Source: Fibrobacter sp. UWB4 | GTDB taxonomy: Bacteria > Fibrobacterota > Fibrobacteria > Fibrobacterales > Fibrobacteraceae | NCBI RefSeq assembly: GCF_002210345.1 | Contig: NZ_MWQI01000001.1 | Location: 310,001-374,000 of the forward strand | Direction: 5' to 3' | Length of the DNA: 64,000 nt | Part shown: piece by piece, positions 820 through 48,290 of the stretch | Layout of the letters: every line of letters begins with the position of its first letter | Numbering within the stretch: the first letter of the stretch is position 1 | Made by a program: the position numbers and the translations under genes | The notes under the pieces: generated by a model | What the model was told of the DNA's origin: nothing | Seen by the model: the letters and a program-made list of their open reading frames with translations, nothing else | Databases searched by the model: none

Positions 820-2307
820 CTAAAATGGGTAAAATTTGCGTTTTTGCACAATCTGGTAGACTAAAAATCCCGTTACAATAGAGATTCCTGTCCATATGGC
901 AAGTGAACGAAATGACATCCAAGGACCCAAATTCATGAAATAGCGCTGGGATATTCCGTAATAATCGTTAATAACAAGGGAATATGCAAATCCATCGATG
1001 TTTAGTGGTATGTAAAAATGACTCAGGGCGATTTGCAAGGCGAGTAACGCTGCGACAGTCTTTGCGCTTAGGTTTGTTTTGTCGAGGGTGTCGCCGAGCG
1101 GGACAAGAATCAAAGGGAGTAGCGGAATGATATGCCTAGCCTCGCTGTCGATAGCAAAGAACATGAAGACGAGGAATGCAAGTGCGTAGCCGGGACTCCG
1201 ATTGAAAATGTTCTTTGAAAAATCGCGGAACAGAAAAATCACAAGTAGCGGCAAGATACCGAAATAGCAGATATGCGAGACCGGTGTGATGAACGGATAC
1301 TTGAGCGGGCGTAAAAAGGCTTGGAGGATAAATGCGACTTCACTAAAAAAGAATTTGTCATTCGCATGTGCGTGGAGGTAAAGAATGATTGCGATGAAGG
1401 GGATGAGGATCATCGCCAATTTTTTCCACAGGGACTGGCGGATAAATTCACGGGCGTATGTGGACGGGGTGTAGATGTGGCCGTCGCAGTTTCGAAGGAC
1501 GATGTAGAGGAAAGCACTCCAGGCAATAGCGTTTACGACGAGTAAAGGCTGGGATGCAGGGATGAACAGCATGCTTTCGAGAAGCTGCTGCTTGTGTAGC
1601 AGGTAGAGCGCGGCAACAGCTCCGACAGAAAGTAACGGAAGCGTTAGGGCGAGAAGTTTCCCGGTGTGGATCTTTAGGTAGTGTGCGTCTTGTGAAAAAG
1701 GTTTATTGAAAAAGTAAAGGAGCCAAATGATGTAGGAGACTGTTGGCCATGTAAAAATGCCCAAAAATGAAATGGCGATTGCCAGCATGTTTTTTTGCCG
1801 CAGCAAATAATAAAAGGACACAAGGAAAATCGTATTTGCGAAGGCGTCCGTCTGAAATATTTCGTAGCCGCAGTTTTTGAGTATGAAATGATTGAAAAAG
1901 AAACACCCAAAGATTAAAGCCGAGGTCGTCTGTTTCCAGGCGCACAGCTTTGTGAGCTTGAAGAAAAATAATATCAGAATGGCGAGATTGCAAAAATGGA
2001 GCACGTACATGGAGTGCATCAGGTTTGCAAGCGTAGGCTTGATGTCAAAGAACGAGAAAAAAAGATTTATCAGGAAAAATGGGAAAATACGGAAAATGCG
2101 GAATCGGTCGTAGCCTGTCGTCCAGAAGTCTGTGGTAAAATTTTGCGCGACCTGGTAGTAGAAGGTTCCGTCGTAGCCGATGCCGTTGTTCAGCGGCGTT
2201 TTTTCGCCCGCAAAAGATAGCGTAAAAAGAAACAGTAAAACGAACACAAGGAGCTCAGAGGCCCCTTGCATTTTAATCAATTTACAGATTTTATGTATGA
2301 CGCTCAC
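820..2307 (-). CDS. Polytopic membrane protein, GT-C glycosyltransferase-like
   Basis: About 495 residues with roughly ten hydrophobic segments and a cytoplasmic start. The early loop contains NGIGYDGTFYYQVA, resembling the YDGQFYY motif seen near the N terminus of many uncharacterised GT-C-like membrane proteins. A late loop has the charged IDSEARHIIPLLPL. This suggests a lipid-linked sugar transferase or polymer-export role, but the substrate cannot be read from sequence. The start shown is a GTG at 2307; an ATG at 2271 (MQGASELL) is an equally credible start just before the first membrane segment. It stands alone between fusA and the EcsC cluster. Confidence 0.6.
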   Translation of the reverse strand: MSVIHKICKLIKMQGASELLVFVLLFLFTLSFAGEKTPLNNGIGYDGTFYYQVAQNFTTDFWTTGYDRFRIFRIFPFFLINLFFSFFDIKPTLANLMHSMYVLHFCNLAILILFFFKLTKLCAWKQTTSALIFGCFFFNHFILKNCGYEIFQTDAFANTIFLVSFYYLLRQKNMLAIAISFLGIFTWPTVSYIIWLLYFFNKPFSQDAHYLKIHTGKLLALTLPLLSVGAVAALYLLHKQQLLESMLFIPASQPLLVVNAIAWSAFLYIVLRNCDGHIYTPSTYAREFIRQSLWKKLAMILIPFIAIILYLHAHANDKFFFSEVAFILQAFLRPLKYPFITPVSHICYFGILPLLVIFLFRDFSKNIFNRSPGYALAFLVFMFFAIDSEARHIIPLLPLILVPLGDTLDKTNLSAKTVAALLALQIALSHFYIPLNIDGFAYSLVINDYYGISQRYFMNLGPWMSFRSLAIWTGISIVTGFLVYQIVQKRKFYPF

Positions 2308-2339
2308 TGTGGAACGCTGACCGTTAAAAAGGAAAACGA

Positions 2340-3065
2340 TTAGTTGTTTTCGTCAGAACTATGTACTGTCGATTCAGCGCTGTTTTCTCCGCTTGCGCTT
2401 TGATCTGCACCATCATCGCCAGATTCAGATTCCTTGTCGATGGCGTTTTCGACGAGTTCCGGCTTTTCTACGCCTTCGAGAGCCTTGAAGTAAGATTTTG
2501 CCGTCTTGCCGACCTCGTTTGTGTCGAAGTACGTGTAGGCTCCGTTACCGATGGCGCCAATGGCCGGGATTGCGCGGAGGGCGATTCGGCCGAGGAAGTT
2601 TGCTGAAATCTTGACTCCGATTTTCTGGAGCAGCTTCTGGAGGGCTGCAAGCGATAGCTTCTGTACGACAATGCGGCTGCCCGTGCGGACGGCGACATCG
2701 CGGAGGAGCGAGGCTGCACTGTGGCGGAAAAGGCACCAGACCATTGCTTCACGGGAGAGCATCGCGAATTTGCCGTATGTGCAAGCGATATCGGAAACAA
2801 GCTGTGCCTGGATGCGCCAGACTGCTGCTATGTCCGGAATGGAGGTGAGGACTCCGGTGAAACCTGCCGGGATAGAAAGCGAGGTGCTAACGGCTGCGGC
2901 CTTGAGGGCTGCCTGCTTGATCAAAATATCGGCTCGCGTATCGGGGTCCCTGTTGGGGCAGAGGAGCGAGTCCGGAATATCCGTAATCAGGTTGAAGACG
3001 ACCGAATTGAACATTTCCTGAATGGAATTGGATTCGTCTTTTTTGAATTCGTTAAAGTTTAACAT
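2340..3065 (-). CDS. EcsC-family protein
   Basis: 241 residues. The central part (about 50-190) matches the EcsC family pattern: an alanine-rich helix, a glycine/proline turn (SIPAGFTGVLTSIPD), then a helix ending near IACTYGK, followed by a Gly/Ala-rich amphipathic stretch (AIPAIGAIGNGAYTYFD). The last 45 residues are acidic and Ser-rich (ESESGDDGADQS), probably disordered. EcsC proteins are poorly understood; a link to membranes is usual. The two small paralogous genes upstream (3078-3365, 3386-3721) are spaced by 12 and 20 bp on the same strand, so the three probably form one operon. Function unknown. Confidence 0.7.
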   Translation of the reverse strand: MLNFNEFKKDESNSIQEMFNSVVFNLITDIPDSLLCPNRDPDTRADILIKQAALKAAAVSTSLSIPAGFTGVLTSIPDIAAVWRIQAQLVSDIACTYGKFAMLSREAMVWCLFRHSAASLLRDVAVRTGSRIVVQKLSLAALQKLLQKIGVKISANFLGRIALRAIPAIGAIGNGAYTYFDTNEVGKTAKSYFKALEGVEKPELVENAIDKESESGDDGADQSASGENSAESTVHSSDENN

Positions 3066-3077
3066 GGCAGCCTCCTT

Positions 3078-3365
3078 CTATTTCAAGAACATTTTAACAA
3101 TTCCTGCGAGGTTTGGGGGAATCATGTAATTAAAACTACTCTTTTCTAACCACAATTTCACAATTTCATCTACCCAAAGTCTATCTGAAGCGATTTTTGT
3201 GATGAAAAACTCGGTTCTTTCGCCATTTTCGACAATTTTGTAGTTTAAATGGAACGAGATGGGTGTCGTTTCGCCATGCGGAATGACTGTAAGGTCCATC
3301 GTCTGCTTTTCGGCGTTGACGCTGAAGGAGACGTTGTTCAATGCTTTCTGAAGTAGCTCTTCCAT
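3078..3365 (-). CDS. Small conserved protein, paralogue of the next gene
   Basis: 95 residues, no signal peptide or membrane segment. It aligns along most of its length with the 111-residue protein encoded just upstream (3386-3721). Shared landmarks are a hydrophobic strand followed by HGE-TP (VIPHGETTPI here, LLHGEFTPTT there), a second strand ending in ITKI/INKV, a V-NEI/VDEI helix with a Trp (KLWLEKSS versus AWWFKNHS), and a C-terminal I-P...G..-K-hydrophobic tail. This is a tandem duplication. The family is not recognised; the conserved alpha/beta pattern suggests a small binding domain. It precedes the EcsC-like gene by 12 bp. Confidence 0.65.
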   Translation of the reverse strand: MEELLQKALNNVSFSVNAEKQTMDLTVIPHGETTPISFHLNYKIVENGERTEFFITKIASDRLWVDEIVKLWLEKSSFNYMIPPNLAGIVKMFLK

Positions 3366-3385
3366 GATTGCTCCATCTGTGGCGG

Positions 3386-3721
3386 TTAGAACAAAATTTT
3401 TGCGAACAAACCCGTGCCCTTAGGGAGTGCTTTCTTGATAGAATGGTTTTTGAACCACCAAGCGGCGATTTCATTGACCAGCGTTCGTGGACTGTCTACT
3501 TTGTTTATGACAATCATTGTACCTTGTTCTGTATCTTCAAAACAGTAGTGTGCACAAAGTGTGGTCGGCGTAAATTCTCCGTGCAGAAGGATGGTCACGG
3601 TTGCTTGATTTTCTAGTGAGTCGATATCGACGTTCTGGATTTCACCAAATCTGTTGATGAAGTCATTGCGCCGGAAGAACATCTCGATGGCTTTGTCTCG
3701 TGCGTTGCTGAGAAAGGACAT
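3386..3721 (-). CDS. Small conserved protein, first gene of EcsC operon
   Basis: 111 residues, soluble by composition. It begins MSFLSNARDKAIEMFF, an amphipathic helix absent from its paralogue, then follows the same core as the 3078-3365 product (LLHGEFTPTT, VINKVDSPRTLVNEI, AWWFKNHS, FAKILF). The ATG at 3721 is the only sensible start. The region just upstream (3722-3810) has no gene and contains a degenerate TTAGGA-type intergenic repeat. The gene leads a likely three-gene operon with its paralogue and the EcsC-like gene. No function assigned. Confidence 0.65.
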   Translation of the reverse strand: MSFLSNARDKAIEMFFRRNDFINRFGEIQNVDIDSLENQATVTILLHGEFTPTTLCAHYCFEDTEQGTMIVINKVDSPRTLVNEIAAWWFKNHSIKKALPKGTGLFAKILF

Positions 3722-30412: not shown

Positions 30413-31603
30413 TTATGATCGTTCGCTTTTTTTATTGGCGATTTCTTTGTACAGCGCGAGCTGGCGCTTGAAACAATCGTTCCAGCTGAATTTTTCGGCG
30501 TACTTGCGGGCTTTGATTTTTTTCTCGGTGAGGTCGGAATGGTAGAGTTCGACGATGGCGTCCGCCAAGGCTTCGGGGGTACGTTCCTTGAGGATTGTAC
30601 CTGCGCCAGAGGTGGTGACGTGCTCGAATGCGGCTCCGGCGGCGGCTCCGACAAGGGCGTTTCCGCTTGCCATGCTTTCCAGAATCGAAAGCCCAAAGGT
30701 TTCCCAGCCAGAAAGTGCAAGTCCCATATCGACGCTTGCGTAATAGCGGGCCATCTCGTCGATGGAATTGACAAAGCCGATATAGCTTACGTGCTTGTAT
30801 TTGGCGGCGGCTTCTTGCACGAGCGGGAGGCTTGGGCCTGTGCCTGCAAAGACAATGGCGGGTTCGTGCCCGAGCTTTTGCGCTAAAATGTCGTAAGCGC
30901 CAAGAACGAGGTCAATGCCTTTTTCGTTGCAATGCCTGTGCGGGAAGAATATCGTGAGACGGTTCGGGTCGCCGTCCTTGAGTTCGTTCACGAGCGCTTC
31001 GTCGCGGCGGCTTGGTGAGAATGTGTCGATGTCGCAACCGAGCGGGATCCAGCGCGGGTCGGGGAGGCCGTTCTTTTTGAGGCGCGCCATTGCTTCTTTT
31101 GAAGATGCCTGTACGCAATCAAATCCGCTGAATTCCTGGTTGGCGTACCAAAACGCGAGCTTGCGGAAGAACGTGCCAGCGCCAGCGCCAAGCTTTTTGG
31201 CTATCGGGCGCCCGACATAAGTCACTGGGAAATCGGCATGCCAAAAACTGAACAAAGCCGCGTTCGGCACGATTTTCTTTGCAATATGGCGAACGACTGA
31301 AGGCAAAATATAGGGCGATCCCACTTCAATCACGTCTGGCTTGTACTTTTCGAGAATCGGGCGAATCTGGTGGGATTTCCACATAAAGCGGTATTCCCAG
31401 TTGCCCGGAAATCGGAATGCCTCTACGTGTTCGATGATTAACCCTTCACTTCTGGTTTCGGTGTAGGTACTTGCAGAAGGCATCACGAAAACGGAACGCA
31501 CATCGCTTTGGCGTTCGTAAAACGCCATTTTTTGCAGGTGGTAACGGCGGACTCCGCCTCCCGACGGACTCCAGAAATTATTGAAATCGACAATGGTAAA
31601 CAT
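30413..31603 (-). CDS. Glycosyltransferase family 4 protein
   Basis: 396 residues, GT-B fold. The N-terminal glycine-rich acceptor loop SPSGGGVRRYHLQ and the C-terminal GT4 motif ALSGWETFGLSILESMASGN (E-x7-E) are clear. It uses an NDP- or UDP-sugar to build a glycoconjugate; substrate unknown. The start ATG overlaps the stop of the upstream primase-like gene by one base (TAATG). The pairing of a glycosyltransferase with a replication-protein relative is odd and may be only transcriptional convenience. Confidence 0.88.
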   Translation of the reverse strand: MFTIVDFNNFWSPSGGGVRRYHLQKMAFYERQSDVRSVFVMPSASTYTETRSEGLIIEHVEAFRFPGNWEYRFMWKSHQIRPILEKYKPDVIEVGSPYILPSVVRHIAKKIVPNAALFSFWHADFPVTYVGRPIAKKLGAGAGTFFRKLAFWYANQEFSGFDCVQASSKEAMARLKKNGLPDPRWIPLGCDIDTFSPSRRDEALVNELKDGDPNRLTIFFPHRHCNEKGIDLVLGAYDILAQKLGHEPAIVFAGTGPSLPLVQEAAAKYKHVSYIGFVNSIDEMARYYASVDMGLALSGWETFGLSILESMASGNALVGAAAGAAFEHVTTSGAGTILKERTPEALADAIVELYHSDLTEKKIKARKYAEKFSWNDCFKRQLALYKEIANKKSERS

Positions 31604-33486
31604 TAAGCTTCTTTCATGCGGCTTGATTGAGGGTCCATCGAAATTTTATTTTCGTAAATGCGGCTTGAGCCTAAACGCCTGGAATCGACGGAAAGGTTCA
31701 GAACGCCATCCTTTTCGGTAAGCCAGTAAATGGCGTCGGAATCGCGAAGGTACGCACGCGGGCCGAGGAGTCCCATATTGGAATCGATGAGCTCTCCACC
31801 GAGGAAAATTGGAATGTCGAGCGCTTTGTACAGATCGAGCATGATGGACGAACGCTTCTCGTGGATGTCCGGGAGTTCCGGGCGGTCGGTAATCTTCATG
31901 TGGTCGATGCCGTCAATTACGAGAATCAAGTCCGGATGGTCCTTGAGTTCCTGGCTAAGAGTCTTGAGCAAGTCGCTAAAATCGAGCGAAGGCATGTCGT
32001 CCCAGATTTCGAGACGGTTGTTGCGCACATAGCCCATCAGGTCGCGAGTCGCATCTAAAATCTTTTTGTTGATTTCGTTGTCTGTATTTTGCTTGCGGAC
32101 GGTCAGAATGGACTGCCCGATGAGCATGGAAACAAGACGGTCAAAAATTTGGCGGCGAGGTGTTTCGTAGGCAACGTAAATGACCTTGAGGTTCGGGTTG
32201 CTTTCGATGAGGTCTAGCGTAAGGCTTGAAAGCAGGAACGTCTTGAGGCCAAACGGATGCGACGAAACAAAGAAGCATCCCGACTGCACCCCATCAATTT
32301 CTTGGGTAAGCTTTGGGAACGTACTGAGCTTATAGCCTACGCTTTGGTCTGGCGGGCATGCCATCGCTGTATCGAAGTTTTCCTTGATGTCCTGCAACAG
32401 CATGGAACGACGGTGCGAGTGTATTGTATCGACTTCGGTTTTTGAAATGAGGTCGAGAAGCTTGTCGGCGCCGTTCTTGCGTACAAAAGTATCGACAGTT
32501 TCGTCCTTCGGGAGCACAATGGACTTGAGGCTCATGTGCATTTGTTCGGCAAGCTTCAGGTACTTTTGAATTTTAAGTTCCTGGTTTCGTCGATCCTCTT
32601 CGCGGCGAAGTATGACGGTAAATGCTTCGGCGCCACAGGCTTTGAGCTTGTAGAGGTGATTGACGTTTAGTTCCTGGTACATTGTGGAGACAACGCCCGG
32701 GATGCCGGCGAGGTCTGCGGTGAGCGCATCGAAGAACCCTTGCACGATAATTGGGTTTTCGCTGTCGGGCTGGATGTTGAACGGAATGACGGTCGGTCCC
32801 GAAGCGTAAGTGATATATGTGTGGCTCTTTTCGTTATCGTCGATGAGTCTTCCGTAGACGGAATGGATAAATCCCTTGGAATTGCGGGCCGGAATTGTAA
32901 TTCGCGGTTCGTGGTACGCTTCGAGGTTGTCAAGGTAAAAACTGATCTGGTGGCGTTCGATGCCGGAGAGCATGCAGTAGCTGATAAACGGTTCGGGGTC
33001 GCCACTGTAATAGCCGAGACCGTAAAGTTGGGCTTGTCCAATGCTCCAGCCGCGGGCTTCGAGGAACTTTGCCGAGGACGGGCTTTTGCAGGCGGCCCAG
33101 TGGCAGTAACGCACAAAGCATTCGAGCACCTTGGACTTTTCGCCGCCGACTTCCTTGACCCAGGGGTGTTCGCTATCCTGGTTGTTTGCCAGATCCTTGT
33201 CGAGTGTGCCCAGGAATTCAAAGGCTTCAGTACGCGCGGTCTGTTCGTCCATGCCATTAAAGCGGCTTTTCATGAGAAAGTCGACCAGATCGCCTTCGGC
33301 GCCGCATTGAAGGCAGCGGTACCGCCAGTAGCCTAGAGCATCGTAGAAAAACAGCGATGTCTCTTCTGGAGCGTGGAACGGGCAGCAGGCAATAAGGTTA
33401 CGGCCCCAGCGGCTCAGAGGAATCCCCAGCTGCCTCGGGTGGGCTTTTGTTCTCATGTAGTCAGCGTGTTCCTGGTCAATTAGCAT
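31603..33486 (-). CDS. Degenerate DnaG/DnaB-like primase-helicase protein
   Basis: 627 residues. A CHC2-type zinc finger near the N terminus has Cys35, His38, Cys58 and Cys61. The middle matches the DnaG core (GLGYYSGDPEPF, HEPRITIPA), but the TOPRIM Glu is Gln (VQGFFDA, 249) and the DxD aspartates are replaced (VILRREEDRR, 291-300). The last 240 residues form a DnaB-like RecA domain: Walker B (LILVIDGIDHM) is fine, but Walker A reads SSHPFGLKTF, lacking the Gly before Lys. Architecture recalls Twinkle/T7 gp4, yet neither active site looks intact. Coupled (TAATG) to a glycosyltransferase gene; divergent from ruvC. Confidence 0.8.
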   Translation of the reverse strand: MLIDQEHADYMRTKAHPRQLGIPLSRWGRNLIACCPFHAPEETSLFFYDALGYWRYRCLQCGAEGDLVDFLMKSRFNGMDEQTARTEAFEFLGTLDKDLANNQDSEHPWVKEVGGEKSKVLECFVRYCHWAACKSPSSAKFLEARGWSIGQAQLYGLGYYSGDPEPFISYCMLSGIERHQISFYLDNLEAYHEPRITIPARNSKGFIHSVYGRLIDDNEKSHTYITYASGPTVIPFNIQPDSENPIIVQGFFDALTADLAGIPGVVSTMYQELNVNHLYKLKACGAEAFTVILRREEDRRNQELKIQKYLKLAEQMHMSLKSIVLPKDETVDTFVRKNGADKLLDLISKTEVDTIHSHRRSMLLQDIKENFDTAMACPPDQSVGYKLSTFPKLTQEIDGVQSGCFFVSSHPFGLKTFLLSSLTLDLIESNPNLKVIYVAYETPRRQIFDRLVSMLIGQSILTVRKQNTDNEINKKILDATRDLMGYVRNNRLEIWDDMPSLDFSDLLKTLSQELKDHPDLILVIDGIDHMKITDRPELPDIHEKRSSIMLDLYKALDIPIFLGGELIDSNMGLLGPRAYLRDSDAIYWLTEKDGVLNLSVDSRRLGSSRIYENKISMDPQSSRMKEA

Positions 33487-43798: not shown

Positions 43799-43915
43799 TT
43801 AAAATGGAACATGCGCTGACAATTCAGGATAATTCAGTATAAGAACACTTCCAGCCATCAAGATCGCTAGAATCGAAATCGCAATGCCAATTATTATTAA
43901 TAAGTTCTTTGTCAC
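43799..43915 (-). CDS. 38-residue single-pass membrane peptide
   Basis: A small gene starting with GTG at 43915 whose first four bases (GTGA) overlap the stop of the LysM gene. It encodes [16 protein letters not shown], then [17 protein letters not shown], then AHVPF. This is one long hydrophobic helix with a short polar tail. It stops at 43799, 14 bp before the kinase start, so it sits exactly between the LysM gene and the kinase gene in the same operon. The overlap and position support real translation; no Shine-Dalgarno is seen, consistent with coupling. Possible roles: kinase modulator or assembly factor (inference). Confidence 0.7.
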
Positions 43916-45066
43916 TGTGCCAATTTCGCTTGATGGGTTATTGAAACCTTGTGTCCAATTTCAATGCGGCGGCTGTTCGAGTAAACTTCGCGAACGAGAA
44001 CCGTAGATTCGTTGTCGGTTGCCCTTGCGATGATGCCACGTCCAAGAAGTCTCGGCGGAATGCTTGCATCCGAGCGGTCTTCTTCCCAGATGGCAATGGC
44101 GTCGCCGGTGTTGTACTCTTGCTTTGTTCCCTTGTCAACCATGATATAGGCGTACGCGCCGATGATGAGCATCGGGTCCATTGTATAGCGGATCATTGCC
44201 ATTTCTTCGACTTTTGCTTCGGGAACGGCCGTGTAGCCAGAGACATTTAATACGTTGAGGGGCTGCTTTAAACGGGCCTTGGCATGGTCTAGCTTAATTT
44301 CCCTGAAGCTCTGGACAATCTTCGCTCTCGAAAGAGTATCTCCGATGGCGGTAATCTTTGCATAACCCGAAAGCCTTACCAAAGCGAAATTGTCATAGCT
44401 CTTGCCCTTGTGGGCGGGAACTTCGATAGCGCGGGCATCCAGGATTTCAACGAGGTCGCCCTTTTTGAGGGACTGGTTTGTCTTGCGCCCGATGCCTACG
44501 ACAACTTCGGATTCCGGAATATGGATAATCGGCTCCTTCTTCTCGCCAGAGCGGATGGAGAAGAACCGGGAATCCTTCTTGATGGAATCAAGTGTGTAAA
44601 TCTCGGGGGCGAGAATCTGGTAGTAGCCGTTGAAAATCTTTGGAGCCGGACGCTTTTTGTAGAGGTAGGTATCAGCCTCTTTTTTCTTCTTGTGCTTTTT
44701 GTCCTTTTCGCGCAGGTTCCCGAGCATGTTCTCAAAATCGCCATTGCGGGCGTCCCTTTCATCGCAACCGACGGAGGTAATTCCCTTCGGCAAGTTGGAA
44801 TCGGCGACAGCGGCTTCGCACGGTCTCGTTTTCGGGAGGCGGTAACCTTCATCGATGCCGTCCCCCAAGTAAATGGAGTCGCCCGGATAAATCCAGTGCG
44901 GGTCTTCAATGTGCCTGTTGTTTTCCCAGAGGTCCGGCCAAGCGAACGGATCATTTAAAAATTCAGCACTCAAGTCCCAGAGGGTGTCGCCTTTTTTTAC
45001 CACATAGGCGGATGCAATCAGAGCTGAAAGACCGAGACAGATCGAAGCACATTTTAAAAATCGCAT
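43912..45066 (-). CDS. Secreted LysM-domain protein
   Basis: 384 residues with a signal peptide (to about ALIASA). An N-terminal LysM domain follows directly: [37 protein letters not shown] Lys-rich spacer (about 120-140) and a beta-rich C-terminal region ([37 protein letters not shown]) resemble secretin- or FlgA-like strands, without a firm match. It probably binds peptidoglycan. First gene of the LysM, peptide, kinase, regulator, propeller run, which suggests envelope sensing. Confidence 0.85.
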
Positions 45067-45104: not shown

Positions 45105-46499
45105 TTAATCTTTTCTTTGCTTAAAAGATGGCGTTTTTTGCACAAAATGCGGAATATCCGACGAATTTGAGCGCATGGGGCGTTCTTTCGGGCGCTGGAT
45201 ATTGCGTGAACGGTGTGCAAGGGCTGGGTTCTGGCCCAAAATGCCAACTCTATCCGGCACAAACAAGAAGAGGATTTCGAAGGTGCCGCGGCCCGGTTCC
45301 ATGTAAAGCGGGATGTTCTTGCGGAGCATGTAGCCTTCGTTACGGAAAGCCTTGATGGCCTTGGAGGCGGTTTCGAGGTTCCCGGTCTGCAAAAGGATGC
45401 GTTCAGGGCGGGATCCTGCGAGCGTGAGAATCATTTCCGAAGTGAGTGTGTCGTTCATGCCCAGGTTGAGGTAGAACGTCCAGCGGCCTTCGGCGTTATC
45501 GCTCTTCGAGAAGAATTTCGAAATGAAGTTTGCATCCAGGTGGCTGCGGTGGAAACGCATGTTCTGCGTGGCGACATTGCGAATGTTCAGCTTGGACGAC
45601 TGCATCGCCACTTCGCGGCAGTCGAGCGATTCGACTTGCTTGAAGAACGGCGCGAGCGATGCTGAAACATAAGAGGAACCGGAGCAGAATTCAAAGAAAC
45701 GGTCTTCGCGGTTCGGGTGGATGGCATCCTTGATGCGCACGGGGAGGTTGAGCCATGCATCCTTGATGCGCGGCGTCCAGTCGAGAACGTGCATGCTAAA
45801 GCCAGTTGATGCAATCGGCATAAAGCTACTGCCGAAGGAGCACTTGGCTTCGACTTTCATGCCTTGTGCATCGGCAGGGTCAAAGAGACGGTCCGGCAAA
45901 CACTGGATTTGGTGGCAGCTGATCACTTCGGGGCAGCTGCGTTCGATAAAGTCCACGAACGTCTTGTAGCCGTGAGCCGAAATTTTGCCTTTGACGTTTA
46001 CTTGTACGAGGAGTGCAAATCGTCCGTCGCCAGTAGCGCGGAACCAGATCTGGCGCAATGCCTTTTTGAAGATGCGCAAATGATCCTTGTGGAGCTGATC
46101 CAAGACTCGGCTCACAAGCTCAATCGGCTTCATGTCGCGGGACGGAGCGTCGATGACCAGGTTTTCCTGGGCGCCATGGAATTCCTTGACGATTCTCCAG
46201 TCGGAATTCTCGGGTGTGGCTTCGGCGGTAAACCATGCCTGCAACTTTCCCGGAATGCGGTCGTTTTCCATCCATGCGGCAACTTGGGCCTTGATGTCGT
46301 CGAACGAAAGAATTCTGCGGACAACAGGCTTTTCGGCCTTTGCCTTCTTTTCTTCGAGTTCATCGTCCTTGCGGACATCGGATTTTCTGGAAGCGTGGAA
46401 CTTGCCTCCGGCGAGAGGTTTGCCGATTCTGTTGCCCATGGTGTTACGGGCAATGCTCCCTTCGGAGCGGCGTGAAAAACGATTGTTCTGTTTGTACAT
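45105..46499 (-). CDS. Degenerate TrmA/RlmD-like methyltransferase
   Basis: 464 residues. The central core (about 80-415) follows the RNA (uracil-5)-methyltransferase layout. The SAM motif I is eroded: [16 protein letters not shown] in place of DLYCG-x-GTFSLPLA. The catalytic SCNP loop reads LQTGNLETA (Gly373 for Cys), and no DPPR motif is seen. The ending [17 protein letters not shown] still mirrors the family C terminus. Basic N- and C-terminal extensions ([32 protein letters not shown]) suggest RNA binding. Predicted pseudoenzyme. It follows the AAA_25 gene by 21 bp. Confidence 0.75.
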
Positions 46500-46520: not shown

Positions 46521-48290
46521 TTAAACTACAAATCTAGGATAAATCCAGGAGCATTCACGGGCGAGCGTCTTTGGAAACTCGCGGAACGAGCCGTTAATCT
46601 GATACGTGTTGAGGCTGCCTTCGACTGGCGAGAGTGATAGGACGCTATCGGCGCGGGATTCAAGATAGGGGTATTCGCCTATGTTCGTGGACGTCACAAC
46701 CGCGCAACCCGTGAGGGCGATAATCGAGTCTACCATCTGCATCAGAATCTGGTGCGGGGAGCCGCTGAGTCTTGACGACTTCGGGTTGTGCAAAACGGCT
46801 GAAATCGGGTCGATCACGACAACCTTGTAATCGTGATTTTCGAGCTTTTTGGCGCCTTGGATGCGCTTCGCAATGAGCTGTGCGATTTCAAGCGGCGTAA
46901 GCGCTGTACCGCGTAGGTTCAAGAAACCGAACTTGGGCGTGTTAGGTTGTAAATTGCGCTTTTCGCCAAGCAAAAAGAGACGGTTCAGGAACACGGACTT
47001 GGTGAGTTCCAAGTTGATGTACAGAACATCGTTTTCGTTTGTCGTGTTGCCAAGCCAGTCTTCGCCATGGCAGATAGATAGAGCCATGTCCATGAGCGCA
47101 AGCGACTTTCCGCTTTTCGGCGGTGCTGTGAATAAGAAAAATTCACCGGCACGGAGCATGTTCTCGATAATACATGGATCCTTTTTCGGAGCTTCTTCGC
47201 TATCGCTTGCAAGTTCCACAAGCGGCTTGCCGTCAAGCGAGTATTCCGCCCATTCGCGCCATTCCGTGAAGTTCTTGGCACCTTGTTCCAATGCGATGAG
47301 GTACTGCTGCTTGCCATTGCGGAGTACGCCTGGCATGCGGACCATCTGGTTCGGGTTCCTGTTCCCGTCATCGACTTTAAAGCCTTGCGATTCAAGCGTC
47401 TGGAATAAAAAGTCAACGCGCTCGTTGTATTCTTCCTGGTCGTGAGCTTCGATCTTGATCCAGGCCTGCACGGAATTTGCGCCTGTGTTCACAAGGGCGG
47501 CGCAGGGGAGGTTCAAAGCCTTGTAGTAGGCAAGCTGCTTCGCTAGCGTCATCTTCGGGTTGTCTACGACAACGTAACGGTAATGCCAGCTTTCGTCGGT
47601 CGCGTCGGCGCCGCCTTTCACGGCGTTAATCGTGAGGAGTGCTCCGTCCGGGCCGTCGAGCTGCTTCATGATCTTCTTGAGTGCTTCGTCTTGCGCGACA
47701 ATCTTCGAGACGATTTCGCGCGAGCCTGACGGCGTATTTGAAATCTTGAATTCAATCGTTTCGTCGGGCTTGAACGTCGCGGCTAGGAGCTTTGCAAAAT
47801 CCTTGCGCCAGTCAGGAGCGGGCCACGGAATCGAAAGCGCTTCGGGGTCAATCTTGAAGTTCTGCAGCAATTCAAGGGATTGCGTGTCGAGACCGAGCGC
47901 AATCATCTGCTGCATCATCGTTGCCGAAAGTGGCGAGATGACGGTTGGCCCCATGGCGGCATATCCCGGAGCCATGCCCGGCTGGGCTTGTGCGCCTTGG
48001 ACCATTTGCGGGGCGCTTGCTGCGTTCGCTTGGGCGGCTGCCTTTTGTTCGGCTTCGCGTTCGGTACGGCGCTTTTCTTCGGAGAATGCGTTGCGCAAAA
48101 TCTTCTCGACATCGTCTGCCGAAAGCCCCTCGTCGCGGGCCTTGCCGCCGAGCTGGAATGTGGCGTCCATGAACGTCCAGCCTTCGTCAAGTGCGGCAAC
48201 GCCGGCTTGGAACAAAGCCTTCTTCAGTTCATTCTGGTCGGCGAATTTGCTCTTTACGAAGTCGTTAAGAATTTTCTTTCCGTTTTCCAT
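46521..48290 (-). CDS. AEP-primase-like / AAA_25 ATPase protein
   Basis: 589 residues from ATG 48290, preceded by a perfect GGAGGT Shine-Dalgarno (5-nt spacing). The N-terminal helices (1-75) and an Ala/Gln/Met-rich linker lead to a primase-like domain (about 210-335: RYVVVDNPKMT, VNTGANSVQAWIKIEA, NPNQMVRMPGVLRNG). In relatives remembered, the metal and nucleotide motifs are ESD and SGGKSxHA; here they are VDN and TGANSVQA. The C-terminal AAA_25/RepA-like ATPase has Walker A APPKSGKS (389-396) and Walker B VVVIDP (Asp494). Phage/plasmid replication ancestry is likely; its cellular job is unknown. Between thiC and the TrmA-like gene. Confidence 0.75.
   Translation of the reverse strand: MENGKKILNDFVKSKFADQNELKKALFQAGVAALDEGWTFMDATFQLGGKARDEGLSADDVEKILRNAFSEEKRRTEREAEQKAAAQANAASAPQMVQGAQAQPGMAPGYAAMGPTVISPLSATMMQQMIALGLDTQSLELLQNFKIDPEALSIPWPAPDWRKDFAKLLAATFKPDETIEFKISNTPSGSREIVSKIVAQDEALKKIMKQLDGPDGALLTINAVKGGADATDESWHYRYVVVDNPKMTLAKQLAYYKALNLPCAALVNTGANSVQAWIKIEAHDQEEYNERVDFLFQTLESQGFKVDDGNRNPNQMVRMPGVLRNGKQQYLIALEQGAKNFTEWREWAEYSLDGKPLVELASDSEEAPKKDPCIIENMLRAGEFFLFTAPPKSGKSLALMDMALSICHGEDWLGNTTNENDVLYINLELTKSVFLNRLFLLGEKRNLQPNTPKFGFLNLRGTALTPLEIAQLIAKRIQGAKKLENHDYKVVVIDPISAVLHNPKSSRLSGSPHQILMQMVDSIIALTGCAVVTSTNIGEYPYLESRADSVLSLSPVEGSLNTYQINGSFREFPKTLARECSWIYPRFVV

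Follow-up and report, generated by a model that had tools for sequence, protein, structure and literature searches.

A chromosomally fixed descendant of a phage primase-helicase in Fibrobacter, probably domesticated as a pseudoenzyme

Why would a bacterial chromosome maintain a replication protein of phage or plasmid type whose primase motifs are altered? This question is raised by a minus-strand open reading frame (48290 to 46521) in a 64,000-nucleotide stretch of DNA from Fibrobacter sp. UWB4, hereafter the window. Its translation gives a product of 589 aa, and its ATG is preceded, at a distance of 5 nt, by a strong GGAGG Shine-Dalgarno sequence. A first-pass annotation of the window had located both correctly, and had described the product as a phage-type AEP primase and RepA/AAA_25 protein that is fixed in the chromosome and has altered primase motifs, a description that our profile searches and the genomes of the genus bear out. 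No publication on this gene came up in our literature searches. We argue below that it probably encodes a domesticated pseudo-primase-helicase, acting as a scaffold or regulator that would bind ATP and probably also nucleotides or nucleic acids.

The present annotation of the 589-aa protein is limited to a single Pfam match, AAA_25 (E 4.4e-20); a search with NCBIfam profiles matched nothing. A PHROGs search identified PHROG_2597, "DNA primase" (E 8.7e-75), over residues 191-532. Because RecA-fold ATPases dominated the PDB fold search with the full-length protein, so that the primase half was not resolved, the AEP domain was folded alone. The resulting AlphaFold2 model of residues 147-354 (pLDDT 91.7, pTM 0.89) found its best Foldseek match in the PDB in the cyanophage S-2L PrimPol (6zp9, E 3.6e-6), and it also matched RSF1010 RepB' (3h25, E 1.3e-5; also 3h20). 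As modelled, the protein thus has the fold that defines the AEP superfamily. When the full model was used in a viral fold search, phage primase/helicase proteins were matched at low TM-scores, because the orientation of the domains in that model is uncertain. The ATPase region matches by profile the RSF1010 RepA protein (1g8y, E 9.6e-7). The positions of the features discussed here are given in Table 1.

Table 1. Features of the locus, in window coordinates
Feature	Position	Strand	Basis
Gene of the probable domesticated InversePrim-type pseudo-primase-helicase (589 aa, P0001)	46521..48290	-	ORF, translation, PHROG_2597, hhalign
Helical N-terminus, residues 1-78, where the phage protein has PriCT_2	48057..48290	-	Helices in predicted model
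Predicted AEP (primase) domain, residues about 160-352	47235..47813	-	AlphaFold2 model and Foldseek
Motif I: phage E-S-D to D243-N244-P245	47556..47564	-	Gapless alignment; second metal-binding acid lost
Motif II: phage S-G-x-K-S-x-H-A to T269-G-A-N-S-V-Q275-A-W277	47460..47486	-	Residue counts
Motif III acid D307, unconserved across chromosomal copies	47370..47372	-	Residue counts
Likely motif IV Arg, R318 of MVRMPG, kept in Fibrobacteraceae	47337..47339	-	Residue counts
Walker A (APPKSGKS, K395), intact	47103..47126	-	G394, K395 and S396 in 74/74
Motif 1a catalytic Glu, E428	47007..47009	-	E67/D6/N1 of 74
Walker B (VVVID, D494), intact	46809..46823	-	D494 in 74/74
Eroded motif 3 and deletion site of loop with candidate arginine finger	46647..46697	-	Alignment with phage copies
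RlmCD/TrmA-like RNA methyltransferase homologue, apparently degenerate motifs	45105..46499	-	RlmCD SP_1029 (5xj1) profile match, E 3e-18; synteny
Conserved downstream LysM protein	43912..45066	-	Pfam LysM, E 2.4e-8; synteny
Degenerate primase-helicase: DnaG-type zinc ribbon, TOPRIM-like region, DnaB-like ATPase	31603..33486	-	Profile matches, alignment

Where does this protein come from? Firstly, a tblastn search against phages returned 50 records, mostly Streptococcus prophages together with phages of Faecalibacterium, Flavonifractor, Enterococcus and Paenibacillus, and in the rows listed the identity is about 30-37% over residues 160-532. Secondly, an hhalign comparison of the alignment of the copies from Fibrobacter and a sister family (f2) with that of the phage proteins gave a probability of 100 and an E value of 1.8e-55 over 416 columns. 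The phage proteins have the domain order PriCT_2, primase region, AAA_25 and C-terminal extension; PriCT_2 is recognized by Pfam in the phage homologue (E 3e-20), whereas the Fibrobacter protein has a helical region there and no Pfam PriCT match. In the tree, the chromosomal copies are separate from the phage clade, whose support is 100/99. Searches of viral contigs with the Fibrobacter sequences revealed no closer relatives, and a plasmid search retrieved one Paenibacillus record. Primases of the PrimPol-PV1 AEP supergroup have been reported to be confined almost entirely to mobile elements (Kazlauskas et al. 2018, PMC5862659). One of its families, InversePrim, is described as present on prophages of Firmicutes, with an AEP domain followed by a RepA-family helicase, a domain named PriCT-1 ahead of the primase and a His in motif II (PMC5862659). 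The domain order and the Firmicute prophage hosts suggest that our phage relatives belong to InversePrim, the two sets having no accession in common. The chromosomal gene descends from a phage primase-helicase of this probable InversePrim type, in which the AEP domain precedes a RepA-like RecA-fold ATPase. An InversePrim-type copy with intact phage motifs is also present in a Fibrobacter genome assembly (L036, positions 1482-3713; G027 contig 64, 5 kb).

As far as the contigs reach, the gene is followed on the same strand throughout the family by genes for the TrmA-like protein, the LysM protein, a histidine kinase, a response regulator, a TPR protein and a solute-binding protein, in this order. 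It had been described as fixed between thiC and the TrmA-like gene. The second neighbour is upheld by synteny, with a median gap of 21 bp to the TrmA-like start codon (57 loci), but thiC is located upstream only in the F. succinogenes-like clade, and we therefore rejected functional coupling to thiC. Read by eye against the RlmD motifs, the SAM-site and catalytic-Cys segments of the TrmA-like protein look degenerate; the copies of f2 and of the most divergent genomes look nearer to canonical. The TrmA-like gene is more widespread than our gene. In genomes of the genera g15 and g17 (L255-L260, L262), the LysM and histidine kinase genes are still adjacent, our gene is gone and the TrmA-like gene is located elsewhere, which weakens the coupling between the two. 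In f2, the gene precedes a ClpC-type gene and a gene that, read from its sequence, is BamA-like. Mirror-tree comparisons with the neighbours gave Spearman coefficients of 0.33 to 0.85; from these values we conclude no more than that they agree with shared inheritance. The surroundings of the locus in the window showed no phage genes, and no Rfam family matched at its gathering score between 40000 and 52000.

The window contains a second degenerate primase-helicase gene, at 31603-33486, as the first-pass annotation had noticed. Across the family, the encoded protein has kept its zinc ligands and has lost the TOPRIM DxD and the P-loop glycine; the TOPRIM Glu is a Gln in the window copy and a Glu in most of the relatives shown. 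One alternative is that the first gene encodes a regulator or structural part of the host replication or repair machinery, forming with the 31603 protein a "pseudo-primosome" that, for example, tunes DnaB or DnaG. On the one hand, both genes derive from primase-helicases, they occur in the same Fibrobacteraceae genera, the distance between them is about 15 kb in many of the genomes with both on one contig, and neither was found in the eight genomes of g15/g17 to which both queries were applied. On the other hand, f2 has only the first, the 31603 query having found nothing beyond weak matches of canonical DnaG strength in the g15, g17 and f2 genomes tested; the joint absence may be a single event; and the genes conserved next to the first one have to do with the envelope and signalling rather than with replication. 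We consider this alternative unlikely. Its fuller form, in which two independently derived, disabled primase-helicases (the first from a phage AEP-RepA protein, the second from the DnaG/DnaB line) would jointly regulate replication, repair or another nucleic-acid process as a non-catalytic, ATP-dependent and lineage-specific complex, seems to us doubtful. Furthermore, since a canonical DnaB, a DciA loader and another open frame of DnaG type (747 aa, contig 5) are encoded elsewhere in the genome, the cell is unlikely to need the protein as its replicative helicase or loader.

Among 168 genomes of the phylum, the profile matched 98, which by our own count from the result table comprise 80 Fibrobacter genomes, 15 from the remaining genera of the family, two of the sister family f2 and one with a weak, ATPase-only match. 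The gene is thus present in 80/80 Fibrobacter genomes and in most other Fibrobacteraceae genera, and sporadic presence inside prophage remnants only, the objection anticipated in the first-pass annotation, is not what we find. The scan of the genome collection relied on peptide patterns specific to this lineage. The profile search did not find the gene in the genera g15 and g17 (14 genomes), which form one clade (99/100) among carriers in the LysM tree; this is compatible with a single loss, in a tree with several weakly supported forks. Since that clade has neither our gene nor the 31603 gene, the former is dispensable in some relatives. In most genomes it is single-copy and open; in G014, a fragmented assembly, it is broken into two pieces. 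G095 and G161, the most divergent of the Fibrobacteraceae genomes carrying the gene, also encode short extra proteins of 361-374 aa that are related only to the ATPase half and the C-terminal part (L234, 4658-5740; L235, 2745-3866). A contig titled Fibrobacter succinogenes (L135, CADBQJ010000085.1) carries a copy that is about 33% identical and has an f2-family context, and its label is probably wrong.

Selection was estimated by the Nei-Gojobori method from pairs with a dS of 0.1-1.0. The median dN/dS of the gene is 0.041, as compared with 0.026 for thiC, 0.025 for the response regulator, 0.058 for the kinase, 0.071 for LysM and 0.094 for the TrmA-like gene; by domain, it is 0.038 for AEP, 0.021 for the ATPase and 0.174 for the linker. 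In a set of 59 sequences, 26% of the columns of the AEP core and 11% of those of the ATPase are invariant. These low ratios and invariant columns indicate that the disabled primase domain is constrained and is not decaying. They also bear on the idea of an anti-phage decoy function, in which the protein, as a dead subunit, would poison incoming phage InversePrim primase-helicases or bind their partners. In favour of this idea, an intact InversePrim-type copy with canonical motifs is present in a Fibrobacter genome (G027 contig 64, L036). Defence genes, though, are usually patchy in distribution, and this gene is found throughout the genus with conserved synteny and a low dN/dS; moreover, the protein has lost the loop that would carry the candidate subunit-contact residue (see below), and a PADLOC search gave no convincing match. 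We regard a decoy function as quite improbable.

The state of the primase site was assessed by counting residues in two sets of distinct sequences, 74 from chromosomes and 83 from phages. Motif I is indeed altered, but the reading of ESD as VDN was off by one residue, ESD being located over D243-N244-P245. The first acid, at position 243, is kept as Asp or Glu (D71/E3, versus E83 in phages), whereas the second, at position 245, is lost in 74/74 chromosomal copies (P71/N1/K1/R1, versus D in 83/83). The motif III acid at position 307 is D63/N5/E4/S2 in the chromosomal copies and Asp in all 83 phage sequences. Thus, the chromosomal copies do not have the complete AEP metal site, to which motif I contributes two acids and motif III one. 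The replacement of SGGKSxHA by TGANSVQA in motif II had been read correctly: position 275 is Gln in 74/74 chromosomal and His in 83/83 phage sequences, and position 277 is Trp in 74/74 versus I79/V4. Arg318 (R72/A2, versus R in 83/83) is, from its position, the likely motif IV Arg of PMC5862659. A total of 31 columns, including D245P, H275Q and I277W, are conserved within both groups with different residues, and 0/83 phage primases share the exact residues of the chromosomal protein, which removes the other anticipated objection, that working primases might have them.

It should be noted that the change from His to Gln does not by itself indicate a dead site, because active RepB'-type primases also have a motif II Gln; it is conserved in RepB'-like and PolpTN2-like enzymes (PMC5862659). 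The main argument is that the second acid of motif I has been lost, since the acids of motifs I and III are reported to be nearly universal and PolpTN2 became inactive when both of its motif I acids were changed (PMC5862659). Judged by these residues, none of the chromosomal copies has an intact primase site; some metal might still be bound, because D243, and D307 in most copies, remain. A still active, unusual primase or polymerase with a RepB'-like Gln and a rearranged metal site would be in keeping with that Gln, with the retained R318 and with the intact predicted fold. However, we consider it very unlikely given a Pro, Asn, Lys or Arg in place of the second motif I acid in 74/74 copies, the variable motif III acid and the PolpTN2 result.

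The ATPase had been described as sound, which is correct for its nucleotide-binding loops: Walker A and Walker B are intact, and the Lys and Asp of RepA-type hexameric helicases (K395, D494) are present in 74/74 copies. It does not hold for the whole of the site. The catalytic set of RepA-type enzymes consists of this Lys and Asp, a Glu, a motif 3 His and an arginine finger (PMC8965321). Glu428 is replaced by Asp or Asn in 7/74 copies, and where the phage proteins have YCHHHSKG..GGKxSMDRASGSGVFARDPD, the chromosomal protein has TSTNIGEYPY-(gap)-LESRAD. In all chromosomal copies shown, the HHHSKG of motif 3, and with it the His, has been replaced, and the GKxSMDRASGSGV loop with the candidate arginine finger (DRASGSGV) is gone from all of them; another Arg could substitute for the latter. 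ATP binding looks retained, and coupled hydrolysis and translocation look compromised; some hydrolysis is possible, because the two Walker motifs do not vary and most copies still have Glu428. A decaying prophage remnant, as the phage ancestry and the loss of the C-terminal region and the ATPase loop might suggest, is hardly credible and was rejected, since the gene is open in essentially all genomes, has a dN/dS of 0.041 and a conserved gene order, and has no phage genes around it.

The gene has phage ancestry, is fixed, is under selection in both domains and has lost primase and motor residues; together with the retained ATP-binding loop, these losses and the strong selection make a new cellular job probable. 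Our preferred reading, a domesticated pseudo-primase-helicase, can be summarized as follows. A phage replication protein of the InversePrim type entered an ancestor of the Fibrobacterales and has been passed on since then as a single-copy chromosomal gene, with strong purifying selection on the primase-like and ATPase domains. The chromosomal copies have lost residues required for primer synthesis and some of those with which a RepA-type ring helicase couples ATP hydrolysis, and the protein probably no longer primes or unwinds DNA. The AEP fold, with a new invariant pocket (TGANSVQAW and R318), may serve as a binding module, and ATP bound by the retained Walker A and B motifs may act as a conformational switch. 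The gene heads a cluster with the apparently degenerate RNA methyltransferase homologue and the LysM protein. Across most of a bacterial order, a descendant of an AEP primase has become a normal part of the chromosome that is inherited vertically, with primase-site residues lost and new ones locked in. On our reading, these cellulose-degrading gut bacteria offer a clean case of a phage replication enzyme turned pseudoenzyme.

How does the protein compare with known systems? With the InversePrim family it shares the order of AEP domain and RepA-family ATPase, and its nearest homologues are Firmicutes prophage proteins; the PriCT domain ahead of the primase was seen in the phage homologue tested. 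It differs in being chromosomal and syntenic, whereas InversePrim is prophage-borne, in its changed motif I acid and motif II His (Gln in 74/74), in having no PriCT match in Pfam, and in the loss of the ATPase loop and the C-terminal region. The PHROG 2597 copies of Streptococcus Javan phages, Faecalibacterium phage Lugh and Enterococcus phage EFC-1, about 30-37% identical over residues 160-532, retain E-S-D, the His, HHHSKG and RASGSGV and extend about 150-170 aa further at the C-terminus; the chromosomal protein is without all of these. The RSF1010 RepA hexameric helicase (1g8y) has the same RecA-fold ATPase and Walker A/B context; unlike RepA, the chromosomal protein is without the motif 3 His and the adjacent loop, and is fused to an AEP domain that appears disabled. 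Finally, RSF1010 RepB' (3h25) and the cyanophage S-2L PrimPol (6zp9) share the AEP-domain fold, and RepB'-like enzymes also share the Gln in motif II; both, however, are working primases, and the motif I acids are reported to be nearly universal among such enzymes.
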